IMG/VR virus record: IMGVR_UViG_3300030329_001881
Location: 1-32,980 of that record
Length of the DNA stretch: 32,980 nt
Source: a virus
Direction: 5' to 3' (one strand)
Part shown: piece after piece, positions 18,273 to 31,479 of the stretch
How positions within the stretch are numbered: position 1 is the first letter of the stretch
Layout: every line of letters starts with the position of its first letter
The notes under the pieces: generated by a model
The model's input: only the letters and a program-made list of their open reading frames with translations
What the model was told of the DNA's origin: nothing
Database searches by the model: none
Position numbers and translations under genes: made by a program

Positions 18273-18623
18273 ATGGAAGATGTAGTCACCATTATTCAAC
18301 AACTAGGATTTCCGATAGCAGCAGCTATAGGTCTTGGTATTTTCATATATAAACTGATTATGAAGATCATCAATGGTATGGAAACTAAACTAGATACTGT
18401 TGATGATAAGGTAAATACTTCATTAGATGCTATGGAAGATCGTCTTAGTACCAAACTAAATGCTCAACATGGTATATTAGTAGCATTAATAGATAGAATA
18501 AGAAGTCTTGATAATGAGATTATTAGACAAGATACTCTTATTAAAACTATATTAGGACTACCACAACTGATAGATACTAATAAGATAGCAAAGGCAGATA
18601 GAGATGATCAAAGAAAAGATTAG
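18273..18623 (+). CDS. Membrane-anchored coiled-coil protein
   Basis: A 116-residue protein with an N-terminal transmembrane helix (residues 10-31, FPIAAAIGLGIFIYKLIMKI) and a long coiled coil (MEDRLSTKLNAQ, ILVALIDRIRSLDNEIIRQ). The topology mirrors the preceding 68-residue protein, with the membrane helix at the opposite end. It might be a holin accessory or i-spanin-like protein. Its 3' end overlaps the csgF start by 20 bases, tying the curli genes to the phage operon. Confidence 0.6.
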   Translation: MEDVVTIIQQLGFPIAAAIGLGIFIYKLIMKIINGMETKLDTVDDKVNTSLDAMEDRLSTKLNAQHGILVALIDRIRSLDNEIIRQDTLIKTILGLPQLIDTNKIAKADRDDQRKD

Positions 18624-19098
18624 TAAAACTTTTAATTATTACAAAAATAAAAAGGGCTGTGCTTTTATGTTGTTGCCTTTATTAGCTATTCCTTTAATGG
18701 CTGATGAAATTAAGTTTCAATTTAAAAACCCTTCTTTTAGTGGTGTTGGTACATCAGCACACTATTTAACCATAGAGAACCAAGAGTACACTAGAAAAGA
18801 AGCCTTAGAAGCCGAAATACAAGCTCTGAAAGATGAATTAGAACGAGATGCAGAAAATACTACATTAGCCAGATTTATTCGTAATTTTGAATCTAGGATA
18901 TATGCCCAGCTATCAAGACAATTAGTTGAACAATTATTCGGTGAAAATCCAGCATCAGAAGGCTCTTTTACTTTATTTGATAATATAATTACATGGACTT
19001 CCGATGGTACTTATATAACACTAACGATATACAATGAAGCAGATGGCACAACAACTGAAATTACTATTCCTATTGGCGATTTTGGGTTCGCTGGTTAG
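18604..19098 (+). CDS. csgF: Curli assembly factor CsgF homologue
   Basis: A 164-residue secreted protein. A basic N-terminus and hydrophobic stretch (residues 18-33, ending LMA) form a signal peptide, with cleavage likely before DEIKFQFKN. FQFKNPSF at 38-45 matches the conserved CsgF N-terminus that plugs into the CsgG pore. After an inserted glutamate-rich helix, residues 86-160 fit the CsgF C-terminal region (RFIRNFESRIYAQL, ITLTIYNEADGTTTEITIP). In curli systems CsgF sits at the cell surface and couples secretion to nucleation. An internal ATG at 18667 is a possible shorter start. The gene overlaps both neighbours. Confidence 0.88.
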   Translation: MIKEKISKTFNYYKNKKGCAFMLLPLLAIPLMADEIKFQFKNPSFSGVGTSAHYLTIENQEYTRKEALEAEIQALKDELERDAENTTLARFIRNFESRIYAQLSRQLVEQLFGENPASEGSFTLFDNIITWTSDGTYITLTIYNEADGTTTEITIPIGDFGFAG

Positions 19099-19885
19099 TT
19101 GTGCAAGTCATGTTAGAAACATTGCCCCTTGTATAGATAACCCAGATTACGATTACAAAGATTTAGTTACTATTATTGGTAAAGCCCAATGTTTTTCTAA
19201 AAGTGCTTTTGTTAATGAGCCTATTACCGATGAAATTAAAAACATAAAAACACCAAATGTCAGACCTGTAGTAGCTGTATATAAATTTCAAGATTTAACA
19301 GGACAAAGAAAATCTGTAGATAACTACGCTAATTTTTCTACTGCTTTAACCCAAGCCCCTGAAACTTACTTAATCAGAGCTTTAAAACAATCAGGGTTCT
19401 TTAGAATTGTGGAAAGAGTGGGGATAGATCACCTAACAAGAGAACGACAAATCATTAGATCAACCAGAGAAAAGTTTGATGATGATACTGAACAATTACC
19501 CTTGTTATTCGCTGGATTGCTATTTGAAGGTGGTGTAGTGGACTACAACACAAATCTATTGACAGGTGGTGTGGGGGCAAGGTATTTGGGTATAGGCAAC
19601 TCAAAACAGTACAGAGAGGACACAGTAGTAGTTTCTATTAGAGTGGTATCAGTTTCTACAGGAGAGATACTATTAGAGAACTTAACAACCAAAACCATAC
19701 TATCAGTAGGTCTGTCTAACGATCTATTTAGGTATATTGCTGATGGAACTAAGCTAGTTGAGTTTGAAACAGGCAATGCAATGAATGAATCTAAGTCAAT
19801 AGCATTGCAATCAGCCATTGAAATTGGTATCGTTAATATCATTGAACAAGGCATAGAAAAAGGCTTTTGGTCATATAGAGAATAA
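19034..19885 (+). CDS. csgG: Curli secretion channel lipoprotein CsgG homologue
   Basis: A 283-residue outer-membrane lipoprotein. The signal peptide ends in the lipobox LVSC (Cys23), followed by A-S, which favours outer-membrane sorting. Core CsgG features are present: VVAVYKFQDLTGQ, the constriction-loop NFSTA, LIRALKQSGFFRIVER, GGVGARYLGIG, VVSVSTGEIL, TKTILSV and the final helix to GFWSYRE. It ends about 20 residues short of the E. coli tail. CsgG forms a nonameric pore that exports unfolded curlin subunits. The signal peptide is encoded in another frame inside the csgF 3' end (65-base overlap). Confidence 0.96.
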   Translation: MKQMAQQLKLLFLLAILGSLVSCASHVRNIAPCIDNPDYDYKDLVTIIGKAQCFSKSAFVNEPITDEIKNIKTPNVRPVVAVYKFQDLTGQRKSVDNYANFSTALTQAPETYLIRALKQSGFFRIVERVGIDHLTRERQIIRSTREKFDDDTEQLPLLFAGLLFEGGVVDYNTNLLTGGVGARYLGIGNSKQYREDTVVVSIRVVSVSTGEILLENLTTKTILSVGLSNDLFRYIADGTKLVEFETGNAMNESKSIALQSAIEIGIVNIIEQGIEKGFWSYRE

Positions 19886-19890
19886 GAATT

Positions 19891-20610
19891 ATGAGAATAT
19901 TATTACTGTTTTTATCTAGCTTTTTATTAGCAGATAACGAAATATTTATAGATCAGAGTGGTGCTAATGCCACCATTAAACTAGAACAGCTTGGTAGCAC
20001 TAATCTAATTGGTGGTACATCTTCTGTTGCAGGTTCTATGACAGCCTTCAGTTTAGATGGTACAGATATGACCTTAACCATTAATCAAATAGGTTCTAGC
20101 AATATTTTTAGATCAGATGGTTTTAACTCAGATTATGTAGAAGCACTTTTTGATTTTGATGGTGATTCTAACCAAATGGATATTCTAATGAACTCAGGTG
20201 GGGCTTATTCAGCCGATTATGCTAATTACAATGTTCAAGTAACAGGTGGTAGTAATACCTTTGATATTGAGATAGCTGAAAACTCAAATGCAGATTACCT
20301 AGATTTAGATTGGATTATTGATGGTGATAGTAATGAGTTTGAATTTGATATTGATTATGAAAATGCCACTAATTACATAGATTTATTTGGTGATAGCAAC
20401 ACTATTACTTTTGCAGGTAGTGGTTATTCAGGCACAACTGCTAGTGATTCAGGTTATTTATATATGGATATAACAGGAAGCTCTAATACATTTGATATTA
20501 CACAAGCATCAACTCTAGCTAGAGATTGGTTAAAAATTACAGGAAATGGATCGAATAGTAGTTGGTGTATTGTTCAAAATGATGATGGCTCTACAGCCAC
20601 TTCATGCTGA
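19891..20610 (+). CDS. Secreted curlin-repeat-like protein
   Basis: A 239-residue secreted protein with a short signal peptide (residues 1-14, cleavage before DNEIF). The early repeats fit the curlin pattern Q-x-G-x-x-N: QSGAN (22-26, one residue short), QLGSTN (33-38), QIGSSN (66-71). Later units change to an acidic form: DGDSN (90), GGSN (119), DGDSN (144), FGDSN (166), TGSSN (195), GNGSN (218), each followed by alternating hydrophobic residues. It should form a stacked beta structure. The end carries two cysteines (226, 239). Placement after CsgF/CsgG makes it the likely exported substrate. Whether it forms amyloid is unproven. Confidence 0.8.
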   Translation: MRILLLFLSSFLLADNEIFIDQSGANATIKLEQLGSTNLIGGTSSVAGSMTAFSLDGTDMTLTINQIGSSNIFRSDGFNSDYVEALFDFDGDSNQMDILMNSGGAYSADYANYNVQVTGGSNTFDIEIAENSNADYLDLDWIIDGDSNEFEFDIDYENATNYIDLFGDSNTITFAGSGYSGTTASDSGYLYMDITGSSNTFDITQASTLARDWLKITGNGSNSSWCIVQNDDGSTATSC

Positions 20611-21631
20611 TACGATAGGAGATATAACAGAGCTTAAGGGCTATGGTCAAATACTCAGAGATGAACCTTATGCAGCCACTTTAGATTTCAACATTAATTC
20701 TTACGATGATGTTCGCACAAGAGCTGGTCGTATTGGTATAACCTTTCTTGATAATTCTACAGTTAAACTAACAGAACATTCTAAGCTAATCATAGATGAA
20801 TACATTTATGATCCTAACCCTGATAAATCTAAGATGGCACTACAATTTGCTAGTGGTACTATCAGATTTACAAGTGGGGCATTTAATAAAAAGAATGTCG
20901 AACTATCCACCCCTACAGCCAATATAGCTGTGCTAGGAACAGATTTTACTTGCACAGTAGATGAAACAGGCAGAAGTCTAATAATCCTGTTGCCTGACGA
21001 ATATGGCGATGCTTCTGGCGAGATTATAGTTTCTACTGCTACAGGACAAGTCACCTTAAATAAACCATACCAAGCCACTACTACTAGCGTATATGAAGCT
21101 AATCCTTCTAAGCCTGTAACCTTAGATATAACACTAGATATGATTGACAATATGTTGATTGTCTCGCCACCCCAAGAAGAAATCAACAATGAACAAACAC
21201 AAGCAAGTCAAAAAGCCGATTATTTAGATTTTAACGATCTTGATGTGGATTTATTGAATGAAGATTTTTTAGATACCGAAGAAGATTTAGATTTTACTGA
21301 ATTAGATGTTGATTACCTTGATGTAAATTTCTTAGAAGATTTATTAGATGTTTTAGATGATTTAGATGAACAGGAAGAAGAAGATCAGTTGGTCGCTGTC
21401 GATGGCACTAACATAGTTGGTACAAGAATAGGACAAGATGGAGAAACCCAAATCACAACCATTCTGCAAGGAGATAAAATTAAATTAATTAGATCAGTTA
21501 ATCAAAATGCACAGGTTGTAGTTAATAGCGATGGTTCTTACACCCTAATCTTTATACAAGATGGGGTATCAAATACAGTAAAAATTAATGGTGGAACTTC
21601 ATCTAGTATTACAATAATACAAACACCATGA
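20546..21631 (+). CDS. Secreted FecR-domain protein
   Basis: A 361-residue protein with a putative signal peptide (residues 1-21, ending PLHA) whose codons lie within the curlin gene's 3' end in another frame (65-base overlap). Residues about 50-150 form a FecR domain: RAGRIGITFLDNSTVKL, LQFASGTIRFTSG, VELSTPTANIAVLGTDF. Residues 225-275 form an extraordinary Asp/Leu-rich tract with YLD, DLD and FLD steps. A beta-rich end follows. In many bacteria FecR-domain proteins lie next to CHASE2 cyclases, as here, suggesting a periplasmic or surface partner of the sensor. The exact start is uncertain. Confidence 0.83.
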   Translation: MDRIVVGVLFKMMMALQPLHADTIGDITELKGYGQILRDEPYAATLDFNINSYDDVRTRAGRIGITFLDNSTVKLTEHSKLIIDEYIYDPNPDKSKMALQFASGTIRFTSGAFNKKNVELSTPTANIAVLGTDFTCTVDETGRSLIILLPDEYGDASGEIIVSTATGQVTLNKPYQATTTSVYEANPSKPVTLDITLDMIDNMLIVSPPQEEINNEQTQASQKADYLDFNDLDVDLLNEDFLDTEEDLDFTELDVDYLDVNFLEDLLDVLDDLDEQEEEDQLVAVDGTNIVGTRIGQDGETQITTILQGDKIKLIRSVNQNAQVVVNSDGSYTLIFIQDGVSNTVKINGGTSSSITIIQTP

Positions 21632-23382
21632 TTAGATTAGGTTTATTAGTTATTTTCATTCTTAGCTTACCTTTAGCTTTTCAGGTTACACCTTTAGAGA
21701 TTCTAAAGTTAAAAACCTTTGATGCTTTAGTAGAGAAACATAAACCATCTGAATATTTTAGTATTCTAAATATAACTGATACTGATGTTAGGGCAGAGGG
21801 TGGTTATCCTTTTCCTCGTCAAAGATTGGCTGAAATAAATAACACGCTTTTACAAAATGGGGCTATTGGTGTAGGCTGGGTAGTATCTTTTATAGACATA
21901 GATCGGTTTGGTGGTGATGACATTTTTTCCAATTCTATTTCACAAGCAGCAGTTGTCGCCACCTTCTCTACTGACAATGGCATCTATCCCCAACCAACAG
22001 GCGTAGTCATATTGGGTGAGGAAGCACAGGGTATTCCTATTGCTGGTTATTATCCCAACATTCCTAAAATTGCTAATGTGGCTTATGAAGGTATGGTGTC
22101 TGCCCCTGTTGATGTCGATGGTCTAGTTAGACGATTACCCTTACTATTCAAAACACCTGATGGCTGGACACCTAGTTTTGGCACACAGGTCTTAAAGCTG
22201 TTAGCTGGTGCTGATACTTTTATTATTAAAACCAATGCAGCAGGTATTGAAGAAATTAAGGTTAGAGGGCTACCTGAAACTAAAGTAGATCAATATGGGC
22301 GTAAATGGATTGCATGGGTAGATACACCTGAAATATCACTTGCCGAAATGGAAAATGGTGTTGGTTTAGAAAAGATACAAGGCAAGTTTGTATTTGTTGG
22401 TGTAACAGCTAAAGGTGTAATGCCACAATTATCTACAAGTAGTGGTGAATTATTAGAGCCACACAAAATCCAAGCTGCCCTAGCTGAATCTATCCTTATT
22501 GATACGCCAAGCATACCTTATTGGCATTTGATGGCAGAATTAGCAATTATGGTAATTACAGGCTTTCTTATTTGGCTTGTAAGCTCATATCTCGGTATTT
22601 TTTGGTCTATCGTATTGGGTGGTGGCATATTTTTCTCTACAGGCTTATTTGGGCTTTACATGATAAATAGGGGCATTTTAATTGATTTTAGCTACACCTT
22701 AATAGCACAATTCGTTACTGCTAGTGTCGCTTACTACCTAAACTTTAGAAAACAATACAAATTACGCCAACAGATTAAGAAACAGTTTGAACATTATCTC
22801 GATCCACGACAAGTTAAACAATTACAAGATAATCCTGAACTGTTAAAACTAGGTGGAGAGAAAAGATACTGTACTTATTTGTTTACTGATGTAAGAGGAT
22901 TTACTGCTTTATCAGAAGTGTTACCACCTAAAGAAGTCACCAAGATTATGAATCAGGTCTTAACCATTCAAGCTGATTGTGTGAAATCTTATGATGGTAT
23001 GGTAGATAAGTATATTGGTGATGCAATGATGGCGATATTTAATGCACCTTTAGATTTAAAAGATCACGAAACAAAAGCTATTAAGTGTGCTATAGAAATA
23101 CAACAAAAAGTTAAAGCAGCTAAGTTGGGTGTTGAAATAGGTGTAGGGATTAATTCAGGAGAAGCCATAATTGGCAACATGGGTAGCAATGATAGATTTG
23201 ATTATAGTGCTATTGGTGATCCTGTGAATACAGCAGCTAGATTAGAAAGTGCAACTAAGGAAGTAGGAGTAGATATTTTGATTGGTCACAATACACAACA
23301 AAAATGCGATTTTAAGTTACAATCATTAAAGCCGATAAAAGTTAAAGGCAAACAAAATGAACTAAGGATTTATACAGTATGA
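21628..23382 (+). CDS. CHASE2-domain class III adenylate cyclase
   Basis: A 584-residue inner-membrane sensor enzyme expected to make cAMP from ATP. TM1 is at 4-20, a periplasmic CHASE2 sensor at about 25-295, then three TM helices (300-372) and a linker with FEHYLDP. The cyclase domain has both metal aspartates (D421 in FTDVRGF, D465 in KYIGDAM), the adenine-selecting K461 and D531, and the transition-state N534 and R538 (PVNTAARLE). All are intact, so an active adenylate cyclase is predicted. The start overlaps the FecR stop (ATGA) and the end overlaps the endolysin start. Confidence 0.93.
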   Translation: MIRLGLLVIFILSLPLAFQVTPLEILKLKTFDALVEKHKPSEYFSILNITDTDVRAEGGYPFPRQRLAEINNTLLQNGAIGVGWVVSFIDIDRFGGDDIFSNSISQAAVVATFSTDNGIYPQPTGVVILGEEAQGIPIAGYYPNIPKIANVAYEGMVSAPVDVDGLVRRLPLLFKTPDGWTPSFGTQVLKLLAGADTFIIKTNAAGIEEIKVRGLPETKVDQYGRKWIAWVDTPEISLAEMENGVGLEKIQGKFVFVGVTAKGVMPQLSTSSGELLEPHKIQAALAESILIDTPSIPYWHLMAELAIMVITGFLIWLVSSYLGIFWSIVLGGGIFFSTGLFGLYMINRGILIDFSYTLIAQFVTASVAYYLNFRKQYKLRQQIKKQFEHYLDPRQVKQLQDNPELLKLGGEKRYCTYLFTDVRGFTALSEVLPPKEVTKIMNQVLTIQADCVKSYDGMVDKYIGDAMMAIFNAPLDLKDHETKAIKCAIEIQQKVKAAKLGVEIGVGINSGEAIIGNMGSNDRFDYSAIGDPVNTAARLESATKEVGVDILIGHNTQQKCDFKLQSLKPIKVKGKQNELRIYTV

Positions 23383-23807
23383 ACGAAGAACTATTAAAAG
23401 AACTTACCGAACACATTAAAGAACATGAGGGCTATTCTCAGCTTGTTTATGATTGTCCAGCAGGATTTTCTACGATTGCTTATGGCAGAAATTTAGATAC
23501 TAAAGGCATATCGTTAGAGGAAGGCGAGTATCTACTTAAAAATGATATAGACCAAGCCTACAACGAAGTTAGAAAAATGATTAAAGATTTTGATGATCTG
23601 CCAATTAAAGCCCAATTAGTTTTAATTGATATGACTTTCAATTTAGGTTTAGGTGGCTTACTTAAATTTGAAAATATGCTTGATGCGATAGAATGTCGTG
23701 ATTGGGAAAAAGCATCTGAAGAACTATTAGATAGTAGGTATGCTGCTCAAACAAAAAGACGAGCCAGACTTAACGCAGCTTTTTTGCTTTCTTGTTCAGA
23801 CGCTTAG
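23379..23807 (+). CDS. Endolysin, T4-type lysozyme (GH24)
   Basis: A 142-residue muramidase that cleaves peptidoglycan at lysis. It has the GH24 pattern: E17 in KEHEGYS, then at the usual spacing C26 (in place of Asp) and T32, near STIAYGRNLD. The family motif is E-8-(D/C)-5-T, so cysteine is an accepted but less common residue. No signal peptide is present, so a holin is needed for release. Its start overlaps the cyclase stop (ATGA), tying the curli/cyclase genes to lysis timing. The 3' end overlaps the convergent HNH gene by 38 bases. Confidence 0.88.
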   Translation: MNEELLKELTEHIKEHEGYSQLVYDCPAGFSTIAYGRNLDTKGISLEEGEYLLKNDIDQAYNEVRKMIKDFDDLPIKAQLVLIDMTFNLGLGGLLKFENMLDAIECRDWEKASEELLDSRYAAQTKRRARLNAAFLLSCSDA

Positions 23808-24273
23808 TAGTTTCAATCATTTGCACATACTTCATTAGCATATCTTCTTTAAGATCGTGCTTCATTATGTTGCAACGATAACAAATAAGCTGAATGTTAT
23901 CAGAGGTATAGCTCTTTTTAGGATCAATCCTATCTAAAGATATGTTTGTATCTACTTTGCCTTGTCCTGTAAGCCAAGTCATTTTTTGTCCTGATAAGGC
24001 ACACTTACCTTCCTGTTTGTGAAATAAATTATATAGATGGGCTTGTGTGATCTCCCAAGTTAGCTTTGCTCTTGAGGTTCTTCTTGTGCCTGAGACAATT
24101 TCGTATCTCAGTTTGGAATAGAGCTTATCCATATAAGAATAAGCATCTAATCCAGCCTGATTAGCACGATATAGTCTATCGCAATCCTTACATCTTGCTC
24201 TGATGCGATCTCCACGATCTATCCAAGCGTTAGACTTGGATATTGGGACTGAACAATCCTTGCATTTTTTCAT
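23770..24273 (-). CDS. HNH nuclease with N-terminal zinc ribbon
   Basis: A 167-residue endonuclease-like protein. The first 31 residues have a zinc ribbon (C4/C7 and C28/C31). The HNH part is at about 88-150: KCALSGQKMTW, then LDRIDPKKSYTSDNIQLICY, RCN and KHD. The first position of the classic DH pair is D-R here, a variation seen in phage HNH proteins. It overlaps the preceding methyltransferase by 44 bases, so the two are co-expressed. It could be a packaging-associated, homing or restriction-type nuclease. Confidence 0.75.
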   Translation of the reverse strand: MKKCKDCSVPISKSNAWIDRGDRIRARCKDCDRLYRANQAGLDAYSYMDKLYSKLRYEIVSGTRRTSRAKLTWEITQAHLYNLFHKQEGKCALSGQKMTWLTGQGKVDTNISLDRIDPKKSYTSDNIQLICYRCNIMKHDLKEDMLMKYVQMIETTKRLNKKAKKLR

Positions 24274-25201
24274 TTATGTTTTTTTTCATTAGCTCAATAT
24301 AATCTGAATTTAATTCTACCAAGACAGCATTTCTATTGTGTGTTGCTGCAACAATACCTGTTGTGCCACTACCAGCAAACGGATCTAAAACTGTGCCAGC
24401 TTTTGTTTCACAAGTTTCGCAATTGCATTGTTTTTGCACTCCCAAATCCATTGGAGGATTTTCTCTATTATATTTATCTAATACGCCGCCAACCTTTCTA
24501 TCATCTAAACCACTTCTTTTGTTTCTCTCTACTTCTAATTGTTTTGGTCTTTGCATAACTCGTTCATAAGGTTTACCACAATCGACACATATTTTTTCTG
24601 GACAACCTGCTAATACGCATGGCTCAATTAAATCCATAGGAAAAGTTGCAAAGTGAGCTGCTTTAAATGGTTTAGTAGTTATTGTCCATACTGTGCGCTT
24701 GTTTCTTTTTGCTCCACTGCTTCTATATTCTTCTGTTGAATTTGCTACATCTTCTTTTATAGCTTCATTATCAAAGTAATATTTTTGACTTTTACTAAAT
24801 AAAAAAATGTATTCATGGGATTTAGTACAGCGATCAGTAACACTTTCAGGCATGGGATTAGGTTTATGCCAAATTATATCTTGTCGCAAGACCCAACCAT
24901 CAGCTTGTAATGCCAGAGCAACCCTAAATGGAATACAGCCTAATTGCTTATTGGGTAAATAACTATCACCCAAATTTAGCCAGACAGTACCATCATCTCG
25001 CAATACTCTTTTTACTTCTCTAAATACTTTAACCAAGTTATGCACAAATTCTTCTGGTGTATCTTCAAGTCCAAGTTGTTTTTCTTCATCATTGTAATTT
25101 CGCAAATTAAAATAAGGTGGAGAAGTAATAACTGTATTTACAGACCTATCTGCTAAATCTTTGATCCTGTCAAAAATGTCTCCTTGATAAATTTTTATCA
25201 T
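24230..25201 (-). CDS. Site-specific DNA methyltransferase (SPPY type)
   Basis: A 323-residue DNA methyltransferase. The catalytic motif TSPPY is at 26-30 and the SAM-binding DPFAGSGTT at 273-281. Motif IV before motif I means the beta-class order, which covers N4-cytosine and N6-adenine enzymes; SPPY leans towards N4-cytosine, but this is not decisive. A cysteine-rich insertion (CVDCGKPY and CNCETC) looks zinc-binding. I chose the ATG at 25201 because it overlaps the upstream TGA (ATGA); an ATG at 25216 is an alternative. It is followed by an overlapping HNH gene. Confidence 0.9.
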   Translation of the reverse strand: MIKIYQGDIFDRIKDLADRSVNTVITSPPYFNLRNYNDEEKQLGLEDTPEEFVHNLVKVFREVKRVLRDDGTVWLNLGDSYLPNKQLGCIPFRVALALQADGWVLRQDIIWHKPNPMPESVTDRCTKSHEYIFLFSKSQKYYFDNEAIKEDVANSTEEYRSSGAKRNKRTVWTITTKPFKAAHFATFPMDLIEPCVLAGCPEKICVDCGKPYERVMQRPKQLEVERNKRSGLDDRKVGGVLDKYNRENPPMDLGVQKQCNCETCETKAGTVLDPFAGSGTTGIVAATHNRNAVLVELNSDYIELMKKNINEKMQGLFSPNIQV

Positions 25202-25371
25202 GCTTTCTTCAGCCATCTAAAAACTGTGCTGTGGTCTATGTTATAACCCATATTTTTAAGTCGTTGCTTTATAGCTCGACAGGATATGGTTGGTTCTTCG
25301 TTAAACATAAGCATCGCATACTCATGTGCTTTTCGTTTTTCAGTTTGTATGTATCTAGTTCCTTTTTTCAT
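25198..25371 (-). CDS. Small helix-turn-helix protein
   Basis: A 57-residue protein starting MKKGTRYIQTEKRK, placed at the ATG with GGGGAG just upstream. The C-terminal half (SCRAIKQRLKNMG, then HSTVFRWLKKA) is a convincing helix-turn-helix with a terminal recognition helix. It lies between two DNA methyltransferases, overlapping both. It may regulate the early operon or guide a partner protein; no family name can be given. Confidence 0.65.
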   Translation of the reverse strand: MKKGTRYIQTEKRKAHEYAMLMFNEEPTISCRAIKQRLKNMGYNIDHSTVFRWLKKA

Positions 25372-25786
25372 AATTCTCCCCAAAAATAACTATCATTGAA
25401 TCGTGCATACCATCTTTTGTTTCTGTATATTCTCCAAAAGTATTTATGCCTTTAAATTTTACTCTACCACGAATAAATCTAATATCTTGGGCGTTGGGTA
25501 AAATATAATCTTGAAACAATACTGTAGAAGTTGAAACAGGTAATAAACAAACACAGAGTTTGCCCTGTTTAGATTCTTCAATAGCTTTTTTAACAAAAGC
25601 ATCTTTTAGTGGTCTTGAGTATGGTGGGTTAATGAAATTACTTTTACCCCATTCTATATCAAGACCATCAAAATCTGCATATAGTGGACATGGATCGAAA
25701 TCAAAATTAAATTCTTCATTTAGTTTGTCATACAATTCATGTGGTGTTTCCCAATGGTCTGAATGATTAAGATTTCTATTCTTCAT
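25355..25786 (-). CDS. Phage DNA N6-adenine methyltransferase (Dam-like)
   Basis: A 143-residue enzyme of the short phage Dam family. HWETPHELYDKLNEEF at 11-26 and FDFDPCP at 28-34 are characteristic, and the catalytic NPPY is at 53-56. The later RFIRGRVKFKG and a conserved DSMIVIFG end the fold. It should protect phage DNA from host nucleases or mark it. It starts inside the end of the exonuclease gene (11-base overlap), so the two are coupled. Confidence 0.9.
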   Translation of the reverse strand: MKNRNLNHSDHWETPHELYDKLNEEFNFDFDPCPLYADFDGLDIEWGKSNFINPPYSRPLKDAFVKKAIEESKQGKLCVCLLPVSTSTVLFQDYILPNAQDIRFIRGRVKFKGINTFGEYTETKDGMHDSMIVIFGENYEKRN

Positions 25787-29472: not shown

Positions 29473-30562
29473 CGAAGATCGTGATAGCCCTAGTGCAAGT
29501 TCTAATTCTCTCTATACAAATGATAGCACTAGGGTTCACGAATCTAACACTAAGCTATGGGTAGAGCCACTAGGCAGCATACTTGATAAGAAGTACCCAA
29601 CACCTGAACCACTTATTGAGGGATTGTTGCATAGTGGCACTCAAACTATTCTGTATGGCAGATCAGGTTCAGGTAAATCCTATATAACCCAAAAGCTCAT
29701 GTTGCATTTGGCGATGGGCATAGATTTTGCTTATTACAAAGTGCCAAAGGCTTGTAAGGTCTTATATGTAGATGGCGAGATGTTACCAGCATCATTGCAA
29801 AGCCGATATCGCAAGATGAAACCCCAATTAGCTGATTTTGATGCTTGGGGTAGGGGTTTGGCTAATTTGCACTATATATCACGATTTATTCAGCCTGAAT
29901 TTAAGGAATTTAATGTAGATACAAATAAACTTGAGGTCAAACAAGAGCCTGAAATGATGTTACGAACCTTAGACGATAAGGCTAATATGCAACAGCTAAT
30001 GAATACCATTGAGGTGAATGAGTATGAGGTTGTGGTCTTAGATAACATCTTTACCCTGTTTTGTTTTGATGATTTTAGTTCGCCTACAGAATGGCTTATC
30101 CATGTGCAGCCTTTTTTAAATTGGTGTCGGCTGAATGATATAACTGTGTGGATCGTAGATCACTCCAGAAAGACAGCATCATCAGGTGGCAATTCAGCTC
30201 TATTCGGGAGTATGGTTAAACAAGTTACGCTAGATTTATTGATTAGCGTGGAATCAGAAAAGAAAGAAATTGATTATGACGATGATACTGATATTGAATT
30301 TGGTTTTAAGTGGACATTTGAAAAGGCCAGACATTTGAAAGCGATAGAGCAAGAAGATGTAGAGTTTCAAATTAGGAATGGTGATATAGAGGTGATAGAG
30401 AATCCTTATAAGAAGCAAATGGTGTTAGCTAAGAAGTATTATGAAGAAGGTATGCCACTTAGAAAGATACAAGAACAGATTATGGAAGATATGTCATACA
30501 ATGTTTCGCATAGCAAAATTCAAAGATGGGCTAAAAGGGAAGGTTGGAAAAGATTAGTGTGA
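29429..30562 (+). CDS. RepA/RecA-fold ATPase (AAA_25-like), replication helicase
   Basis: A 377-residue ATPase with Walker A GRSGSGKS at 77-84, VLYVDGEML at about 111-119, Walker B YEVVVLDN at 199-206, and VWIVDHSRK at 240-248. This is the RepA-type hexameric helicase or RecA-fold pattern used by small phages to load the host replisome. The last 45 residues (PLRKIQEQIMEDM, HSKIQRWAKREGW) look like an HTH DNA-binding tail. The start is a GTG overlapping the SSB-like gene; GTGs at 29435 and 29444 are alternatives. Confidence 0.8.
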   Translation: MKVDQVNWKKIYHSNEDRDSPSASSNSLYTNDSTRVHESNTKLWVEPLGSILDKKYPTPEPLIEGLLHSGTQTILYGRSGSGKSYITQKLMLHLAMGIDFAYYKVPKACKVLYVDGEMLPASLQSRYRKMKPQLADFDAWGRGLANLHYISRFIQPEFKEFNVDTNKLEVKQEPEMMLRTLDDKANMQQLMNTIEVNEYEVVVLDNIFTLFCFDDFSSPTEWLIHVQPFLNWCRLNDITVWIVDHSRKTASSGGNSALFGSMVKQVTLDLLISVESEKKEIDYDDDTDIEFGFKWTFEKARHLKAIEQEDVEFQIRNGDIEVIENPYKKQMVLAKKYYEEGMPLRKIQEQIMEDMSYNVSHSKIQRWAKREGWKRLV

Positions 30563-31479
30563 GGCACAAACAGGTAAATTTTGATTTTGGTCAAAGTTAT
30601 GAAACAGACAAAAATAAAACATTGATTATTAGCTTTAGTGGTGGTCGTACTTCTGGATACTTAACACACCAAATGCTAAAAGAAAAAAATCAATGGAAAG
30701 ATATTCATGTAGTGTTTGCTAATACAGGACAAGAACATGAAAAGACACTAGAGTTCATAAATAATTGTGATATAAACTTTGGCTTCAACACTAAATGGAT
30801 AGAAGCTGTCCACACATTCGAGAAGGGTAAGGGAGTAACATATAAAACAGTAGATTTTAAAACTGCTTCAAGGACAGGTGAACCCTTTGAAAATGCCATA
30901 AAAAAATTTGGCTTACCATTTTCTAAGTCACCTCATTGCACCAGAGAACTAAAAAATTATCCAATCAATTCATATATCAAAAGTTTAGGGCTTACAAAAA
31001 AAGATTACAAAATTGCAATCGGAATTAGGGCTGATGAAGCAAAAAGAGCAAATCCTGACAATAAATTAAACTTTATTTTTCCATTATTAGATACAAACAT
31101 TCATAAACAAGATGTGCTCGATTGGTGGGAAGATCAAAAATTTGATTTAGAAATTCCAGAACATATGGGCAATTGTGTGTGGTGCTGGAAAAAATCTTAT
31201 AAAAAACTTATGACAGTTATGGCAGAATGTCCAGAAGCCTTTGATTTTCCAGAAAGAATGGAAAAACTTTACAGCAGAAATGGTGCTGTTGCTAACAAAC
31301 TTCAAAAAGATATAAAAATATTTAGGGGCTGGAAGTCGGTAGAAAACATTAGAGAAATGATGTCTCAAGGGTTTGAAAAATATATTGACTTGCACCATTT
31401 ACACATTACTGATGGGTGTAGTGAATCATGTGAGCCTTTTTTAGATGATGACACAAAACCGATAAAAATATTAGATTAG
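30559..31479 (+). CDS. PAPS reductase-family (PP-loop) protein
   Basis: A 306-residue protein of the adenine nucleotide alpha-hydrolase superfamily. The PP-loop ISFSGGRTSGYL is near the N-terminus. A CTREL segment and a CVWC pair later recall the sulfur/iron-sulfur chemistry of PAPS-reductase and DndC-like proteins. I chose GTG at 30559 because it overlaps the preceding stop (GTGA); a TTG at 30544 is possible. Phage members are of uncertain function, with sulfur-based nucleic-acid modification or cysteine supply as options. Confidence 0.75.
   Translation: MRHKQVNFDFGQSYETDKNKTLIISFSGGRTSGYLTHQMLKEKNQWKDIHVVFANTGQEHEKTLEFINNCDINFGFNTKWIEAVHTFEKGKGVTYKTVDFKTASRTGEPFENAIKKFGLPFSKSPHCTRELKNYPINSYIKSLGLTKKDYKIAIGIRADEAKRANPDNKLNFIFPLLDTNIHKQDVLDWWEDQKFDLEIPEHMGNCVWCWKKSYKKLMTVMAECPEAFDFPERMEKLYSRNGAVANKLQKDIKIFRGWKSVENIREMMSQGFEKYIDLHHLHITDGCSESCEPFLDDDTKPIKILD

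Follow-up and report, generated by a model that had tools for sequence, protein, structure and literature searches.

Introduction

Pelagiphages carry a type VIII secretion (T8SS, curli) module that includes FecR and an adenylate cyclase (AC), for which a role in cAMP signalling was inferred and an alphaproteobacterial origin of the cyclase reported (Wittmers 2022, PMC9599517). Parts of the phage curli module had been described earlier, together with the proposal that siblings are captured by curli fibres (Zaragoza-Solas 2020, PMC7029224), and a role in lysis has been proposed for the CsgGF pore of Melnitz (Buchholz 2022, PMC9004378). The cyclase of phage HTVC008M is already annotated as an adenylate/guanylyl cyclase. 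In cellular systems, CHASE2 cyclases of Sinorhizobium meliloti are activated via the outer-membrane barrel protein NsrA and signal via Clr, a regulator of the CRP type (PMC13001267), FecR adjoins CHASE2 kinases in the Burkholderia BiofilmReg operon (PMC5192318), and FecR and CHASE2 cyclases are clustered in Campylobacterota (PMC9239204).

Here we analyse a CHASE2 cyclase gene and its neighbours in the window, by which we mean the whole 32,980-nucleotide stretch of IMG/VR virus record IMGVR_UViG_3300030329_001881. New in the present analysis are the co-variation of CHASE2 with FecR, a curlin-like end on FecR, the presence of FecR beside cellular relatives of the cyclase, and the scarcity of cNMP-binding domains and class III cyclases in the Pelagibacter family.

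The phage record and its curli cassette

The record is a 33-kb contig of a marine virus with a lambda-type siphovirus build. Upstream of the cassette it encodes a gpA (lambda-type) terminase, a lambda-family portal, capsid, tape measure and a J-like tail protein, and downstream of the cyclase lysozyme, methyltransferases and recombination genes. With phage structural genes on one side and lysozyme and other phage genes on the other, a cellular contig mistaken for a phage was rejected. The structural genes are collinear with those of Roseobacter phage CRP-811 (29–55% protein identity), which has no such cassette between its tail and lysis genes, and Roseobacter is the host of the nearest cultured relatives, as judged from the structural genes; this structural kinship is distant, and GC differs strongly from that of Roseobacter phages (0.53 vs 0.35). 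Also present in the record are a minus-strand cluster in which two DNA methyltransferase genes (N6_N4_Mtase, Dam type) accompany an HNH/endonuclease VII-like gene (23770-25786), and a gene for a PAPS-reductase-like protein (30544-31479), a known phage auxiliary gene family, located 3' of a RepA/primase-like AAA ATPase.

The cassette, its immediate neighbours and the relevant protein regions are as follows:

18273..18623, + strand: 116-aa coiled-coil protein with a single membrane helix at its N-terminus; matches only PHROGs of unknown function
18604..19098, + strand: CsgF-like curli secretion factor (Pfam CsgF, 3.8e-18)
19034..19885, + strand: CsgG-like outer-membrane curli secretion pore (Pfam CsgG, 4.2e-48)
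19891..20610, + strand: curlin-like fibre subunit with a signal peptide and imperfect curlin-type repeats (Pfam Curlin_rpt, 0.023, under the cut-off)
20546..21631, + strand: exported FecR-domain protein with a signal peptide, FecR domain (54-144; Pfam FecR, 1.4e-12), acidic region and curlin-like C-terminal end
21569..21628, + strand: curlin-like half-repeat in the last 20 FecR residues, ...GTSSSITIIQTP (motif [NS]x[IVF]x[IVL]xQ)
21628..23382, + strand: CHASE2 class III adenylate cyclase, 584 aa, ATG start (Pfam domains)
21661..22569, + strand: CHASE2 periplasmic sensor region, residues 12-314 (Pfam CHASE2, 4.3e-26, 92.5 bits)
22867..23361, + strand: class III cyclase catalytic domain, residues 414-578 (Pfam Guanylate_cyc, 7.8e-20; alignment; fold match)
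23379..23807, + strand: phage lysozyme (endolysin) (Pfam Phage_lysozyme, 2.2e-12; PHROG endolysin, 1.4e-20)

Within the cassette (18604-23382), CsgF, CsgG, the curlin-like protein, FecR and the cyclase occur in the order characteristic of the phage T8SS-FecR-AC module, with the cyclase last and the lysozyme gene next. FecR and cyclase, as well as cyclase and lysozyme, overlap by 4 nt (ATGA), which suggests translational coupling. The published module is described with a histidine kinase upstream; at that position the window has the 116-aa gene, whose product showed no kinase domain in a Pfam search and whose homologues lie directly upstream of CsgF in related phages, sometimes in two copies. 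This is probably the gene that Wittmers 2022 (PMC9599517) named histidine kinase, and the published label is probably wrong, with module membership itself in all likelihood unaffected. No ORF for the CsgE or CsgD of E. coli-type curli operons was seen in the cassette, and both are absent too from the published phage modules. A QxGxxN motif was found in 228 of 234 homologues of the curlin-like protein, and the FecR Pfam domain was matched in all 15 of the FecR homologues scanned. Unlike a FecR anti-sigma or iron regulator, which has a cytoplasmic N-terminus followed by a membrane helix and is encoded next to a FecI sigma factor, the FecR protein of the window has a signal-peptide-like N-terminus before its FecR domain and is encoded in a cassette lacking a sigma factor.

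An intact CHASE2 class III cyclase

The reading frame at 21628-23382 (+) has no internal stops, and both of its domain matches are far over the Pfam cut-offs (Guanylate_cyc 71.7 bits vs 21.9, and CHASE2 likewise), bearing out the full CHASE2 sensor described in a previous sequence-only reading of this DNA (Pfam CHASE2 4e-26, residues 12-314). The six canonical class III residues named in that reading (D421, K461, D465, D531, N534 and R538) are present in the translation at exactly those positions and align with the equivalent motifs of P. aeruginosa CyaB (3r5g) and other solved class III cyclases. They comprise the metal-binding Asp pair and the transition-state Asn and Arg of class III cyclases (D421, D465, N534, R538) and an adenylate-type base-recognition Lys/Asp pair (K461 and D531), from which the substrate is predicted. 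In the AlphaFold2 model of the protein (pLDDT 77), the catalytic domain superposes on 3r5g at 2.0 Å with a TM of 0.80 (by target length).

Four membrane helices are predicted, one more than had been claimed: an N-terminal helix (2-17) and three following CHASE2 (300-321, 324-347 and 355-388), with hydropathy peaks at all of these except the last. A CHASE2 region flanked by one N-terminal and three later helices is the topology of CHASE2 sensor proteins, and the predicted layout is as needed for a periplasmic sensor with a cytoplasmic cyclase. As judged from its sequence, the product of this gene is probably a maintained class III cyclase that is likely to be catalytically active.

Occurrence and selection among phages

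An IMG/VR scan with the window cyclase found relatives encoded by at least 598 viral stretches; hundreds of marine phages carry the gene, and its presence in phages is not due to chance. In the window clade, consisting of the window and the best 80 of these at least 598 relatives, the reading frame is uninterrupted in 80 of 81 cyclases and carries a stop in the remaining one. D421, K461, D465, N534 and R538 are invariant in the 80 intact proteins, and D531 is replaced by Ser in two. Pairwise dN/dS in this clade is about 0.15–0.16 for the cyclase gene (median 0.16), 0.12 for the cyclase domain and 0.15 for CHASE2. FecR lies upstream of the cyclase in all close relatives with enough sequence (61/61), and wherever enough upstream sequence was available (44/44) the order is CsgF-CsgG-curlin-FecR-cyclase, with the curlin-like gene between CsgG and FecR in every case. 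The intact residues, the dN/dS values and the fixed neighbours together indicate that purifying selection maintains the gene as a component of a module.

A decayed passenger was thus rejected on intact frames and residues and a dN/dS of about 0.15, in agreement with the sequence-only reading; frequent disruption in relatives was not seen, and dN/dS across related phages points to purifying selection. A free-standing cyclase was likewise rejected, FecR being nearly always upstream. The earlier view of an apparently active cyclase holds insofar as the gene is maintained and its product probably active by residues and selection, but it missed membership in a curli/FecR cassette, a context that points to fibre secretion rather than to a stand-alone sensor of periplasmic signals.

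Three wider scans, with the cyclases of HTVC008M and Melnitz and a third cyclase as queries, recovered FecR in 117 and CsgG in 111 of 119 loci. The catalytic residues are also kept in the HTVC008M clade. In Melnitz-like cyclases (L083:5917-7968, L245-L324), Ser replaces the transition-state Asn N534 in each of the 77 long copies, and the cyclase domain is under strong purifying selection despite this replacement (dN/dS 0.056). Given the Asn-to-Ser change, full activity may perhaps be dispensable in some carriers. The same pattern would fit a protein that is largely or wholly inactive as a cyclase and serves as a sensor scaffold, selected for CHASE2 and a structural role; we consider this very unlikely, as the catalytic residues are kept in both the window and HTVC008M clades. 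Separately, the cyclase pairs L005/L006, L012/L072 and L020/L021 have nearly identical CHASE2 regions and divergent cyclase domains, suggesting recombination that swapped the catalytic domain beneath a conserved sensor.

A lysozyme homologue was found within the available downstream sequence of 22 of 61 close relatives. Combined with the 4-nt overlap of cyclase and lysozyme genes in the window and the lysis role posited for CsgGF in Melnitz (PMC9004378), this could indicate that the CsgG/CsgF pore and the cyclase form a lysis-control programme. Such a function is distinctly unlikely in our assessment: the cyclases of HTVC008M and Melnitz are followed by opposite-strand structural genes, not lysis genes, and the conserved curlin-like protein and FecR would have no obvious part in lysis.

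A pattern scan of genome contigs for a cellular donor returned six hits, all judged to be probable phage sequence in metagenome bins: the phage-type cassette is present in L085, L087 and L090 and partly so in L086, and L088 and L089 have a phage-type cyclase with small coiled-coil genes. Two Acinetobacter 'phage' hits (H7 and H8) were not used, H7 being a CyaA-like cyclase of chromosomal type that neighbours mfd and hscA on a mislabelled bacterial contig. The record L084 (Acinetobacter phage MD-2021a, CAKLQH020000011.1), labelled as phage, carries the chromosomal genes mfd, hscA, hscB and cyaA and is apparently a bacterial contig.

FecR as a candidate bridge between fibre and sensor

Co-variation was assessed by correlating pairwise protein distances across phages after removal of near-duplicates. 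CHASE2 distances correlate with those of the FecR domain, with r 0.66 among the 45 phages of the window clade, 0.80 among the 74 others and 0.86 among all 119, compared with 0.46, 0.31 and 0.63, respectively, for CHASE2 and its own cyclase domain; such correlations also reflect shared phylogeny and recombination and do not prove contact. Bootstrap intervals for the difference between the CHASE2-FecR and CHASE2-cyclase correlations exclude zero. The distances of the curlin-like protein are tracked better by the FecR tail than by the FecR domain, and those of CHASE2 better by the FecR domain than by the tail. As the order on the DNA is curlin, FecR domain, FecR tail, CHASE2, simple linkage predicts the opposite of both patterns.

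The FecR tail itself resembles the fibre subunit. The motif [NS]x[IVF]x[IVL]xQ occurs within the last 20 residues of 179 of 208 phage FecRs against 3.2 expected from shuffling, these FecRs being related by descent and their counts therefore not independent. It is absent from the rest of FecR and averages 1.8 copies per curlin-like protein. Pfam Curlin_rpt matches none of the 15 FecRs (0/15), and the half-repeat therefore rests on the motif count; the AlphaFold2 model of FecR (pLDDT 45) was too poor for use. These sequence patterns suggest that FecR is a bridge whose tail is fibre-like and whose FecR domain faces the sensor.

Cellular relatives and a proposed mechanism

The neighbourhoods (at most about 10 kb to either side) of the 40 best alphaproteobacterial cyclase relatives were inspected. 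A FecR ORF is present in 17 of them, where 0.53 would be expected by chance as computed from the FecR counts of the same genomes (P 3e-20); the available sequence of the other 23, some on short contigs, contains no FecR. In nine of the 17 FecR-bearing loci FecR is directly upstream in opposite orientation, and curli genes were found near the cyclase in none of the 40. Of eight FecR ORFs scanned, five encode giant secreted adhesin-like proteins, 1346-2017 residues long and with RTX, cadherin-like, VWA or Calx-beta domains, in which the FecR domain occupies the N-terminal portion (around residues 140-270). Two loci, L132 (5175-18066) and L137 (4882-18444), encode, in this order, an ABC exporter, HlyD, the CHASE2 cyclase, a TolC-type protein and a giant FecR-RTX protein, and in L161 and L162 the cyclase is flanked by ABC, HlyD and TolC-type homologues.

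Intact residues, selection, gene order, co-variation, the FecR tail and the bacterial FecR-CHASE2 pairs lead us to propose that the cyclase is the signalling arm of the phage curli (type VIII secretion) cassette and reports curli export via FecR, a proposal that we hold to be evenly poised between right and wrong. The infected cell would make a CsgG pore with CsgF, a curlin-like subunit and an exported FecR protein, the tail of which would join or cap the fibre or its secretion complex. The FecR domain would remain periplasmic and dock on CHASE2, and the docked or undocked state of FecR would set cyclase activity, providing a report on whether curli export is running. The steps that we infer are a direct contact between FecR and CHASE2, the sense in which FecR controls the cyclase, the formation of cAMP in vivo and any downstream effect.

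If the proposal is correct, a FecR domain on an adhesin or curli end would inform a CHASE2 cyclase or kinase about fibre secretion, and the FecR bridge would be the reason for FecR and the cyclase travelling with phage curli. The ligands of CHASE2 are listed as unknown (PMC5192318); co-variation, the curlin-like end of FecR and the cellular FecR-adhesin pairs would offer a concrete and testable one. More tentatively, and with the balance of probability against it, FecR could be a general periplasmic reporter of fibre export with CHASE2 as its receptor, marine phages having acquired this unit and installing curli along with a cAMP signal in streamlined hosts otherwise devoid of a cAMP pathway.

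Hosts and potential cAMP receivers

The Pelagibacter family provides the hosts of the best-known carrier phages. Potential receivers of cAMP were sought in 118 genomes from the family to which G001 belongs; this bin bears the title Candidatus Pelagibacter, and its own cyclase is phage-type. Only five of these 118 genomes, some of which may be incomplete, have a cNMP_binding domain, control domains giving the expected matches, and three have a class III cyclase match. Neither the window record nor the carriers examined (two complete phages and four large contigs) were found to encode a cNMP-binding domain. A route from cAMP to a CRP-type receptor is thus unlikely in SAR11 hosts, and for several known or probable hosts it is not obvious how cAMP would be read. 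Roseobacter is a group known for Crp/Fnr regulators, and a Roseobacter-like host, if it is the host of the window phage, could hold cAMP receptors.

This bears on whether the cyclase reprogrammes the host, an environmental periplasmic signal raising cAMP that acts through a CRP-type receptor on host transcription, independently of curli. An intact enzyme and sensor under purifying selection are consistent with such a role, as is the infection of Roseobacter by the window's nearest cultured relatives, and the S. meliloti CHASE2 cyclases do work via CRP-type Clr (PMC13001267). We nevertheless regard host reprogramming as unlikely, given that the cyclase is virtually never found without FecR and is usually accompanied by CsgG, that cNMP-binding domains and class III cyclases are so scarce in the Pelagibacter family, and that receptor genes were not found in the carrier phages examined. 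The same scarcity, and the lack of cNMP-binding proteins encoded by the record and the carriers, leaves the sequence-only suggestion that raised cAMP alters host transcription unsupported as stated. With cAMP receptors so rare in the Pelagibacter family, the usual cAMP-to-CRP account is doubtful for hosts that are among the most abundant in the ocean.

The sequence-only reading had also raised interference with nucleotide-based defence. In such a role the cyclase would flood or mimic the nucleotide signals of host antiphage systems. We found no evidence linking the cyclase to defence and no support beyond the broad notion that defence makes use of nucleotide signals, and a FecR-linked membrane sensor in a fibre cassette, with cellular FecR-adhesin counterparts, would be an unexpected design for this purpose. 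Counter-defence is, in our view, hardly credible, and the curli-reporting cyclase remains our preferred reading.

Comparison with known systems

In gene content and order (CsgF, CsgG, curlin-like, FecR, cyclase), the window cassette matches the module of Wittmers 2022 (PMC9599517). It differs in lacking a second curlin gene between FecR and cyclase, in its carrier, a siphovirus collinear with CRP-811 rather than a podo- or myovirus, and in the CHASE2 region of its cyclase, which is not mentioned in that paper. As the cassette is already published for pelagiphages its novelty is modest, carriage by a siphovirus being an extension. The cassette of the methylophage Melnitz (PMC9004378) likewise encodes CsgF, CsgG, a curlin-associated protein, FecR and a cyclase, although its cyclase belongs to the clade with N534S and shares about 30% protein identity with that of the window; cyclase and FecR are left undiscussed by Buchholz 2022 (PMC9004378).

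Among cellular systems, CyaD1, CyaD2 and CyaK of S. meliloti combine CHASE2 with a class III cyclase as in the window, but are read by Clr and have not been described with a curli cassette. The Burkholderia (PMC5192318) and Campylobacterota (PMC9239204) pairs share with the window an exported FecR beside a CHASE2 sensor; the Burkholderia output is a histidine kinase, and neither pair is tied to curli or phages in those papers. The L132 and L137 operons are comparable in combining FecR and a CHASE2 cyclase with an adhesin-like protein and an outer-membrane channel, and differ in using type I secretion instead of curli and in the length of their cyclases (about 740-750 aa). The theme shared by these systems is FecR and a CHASE2 output adjoining an export or surface system, with curli as the partner in phages.
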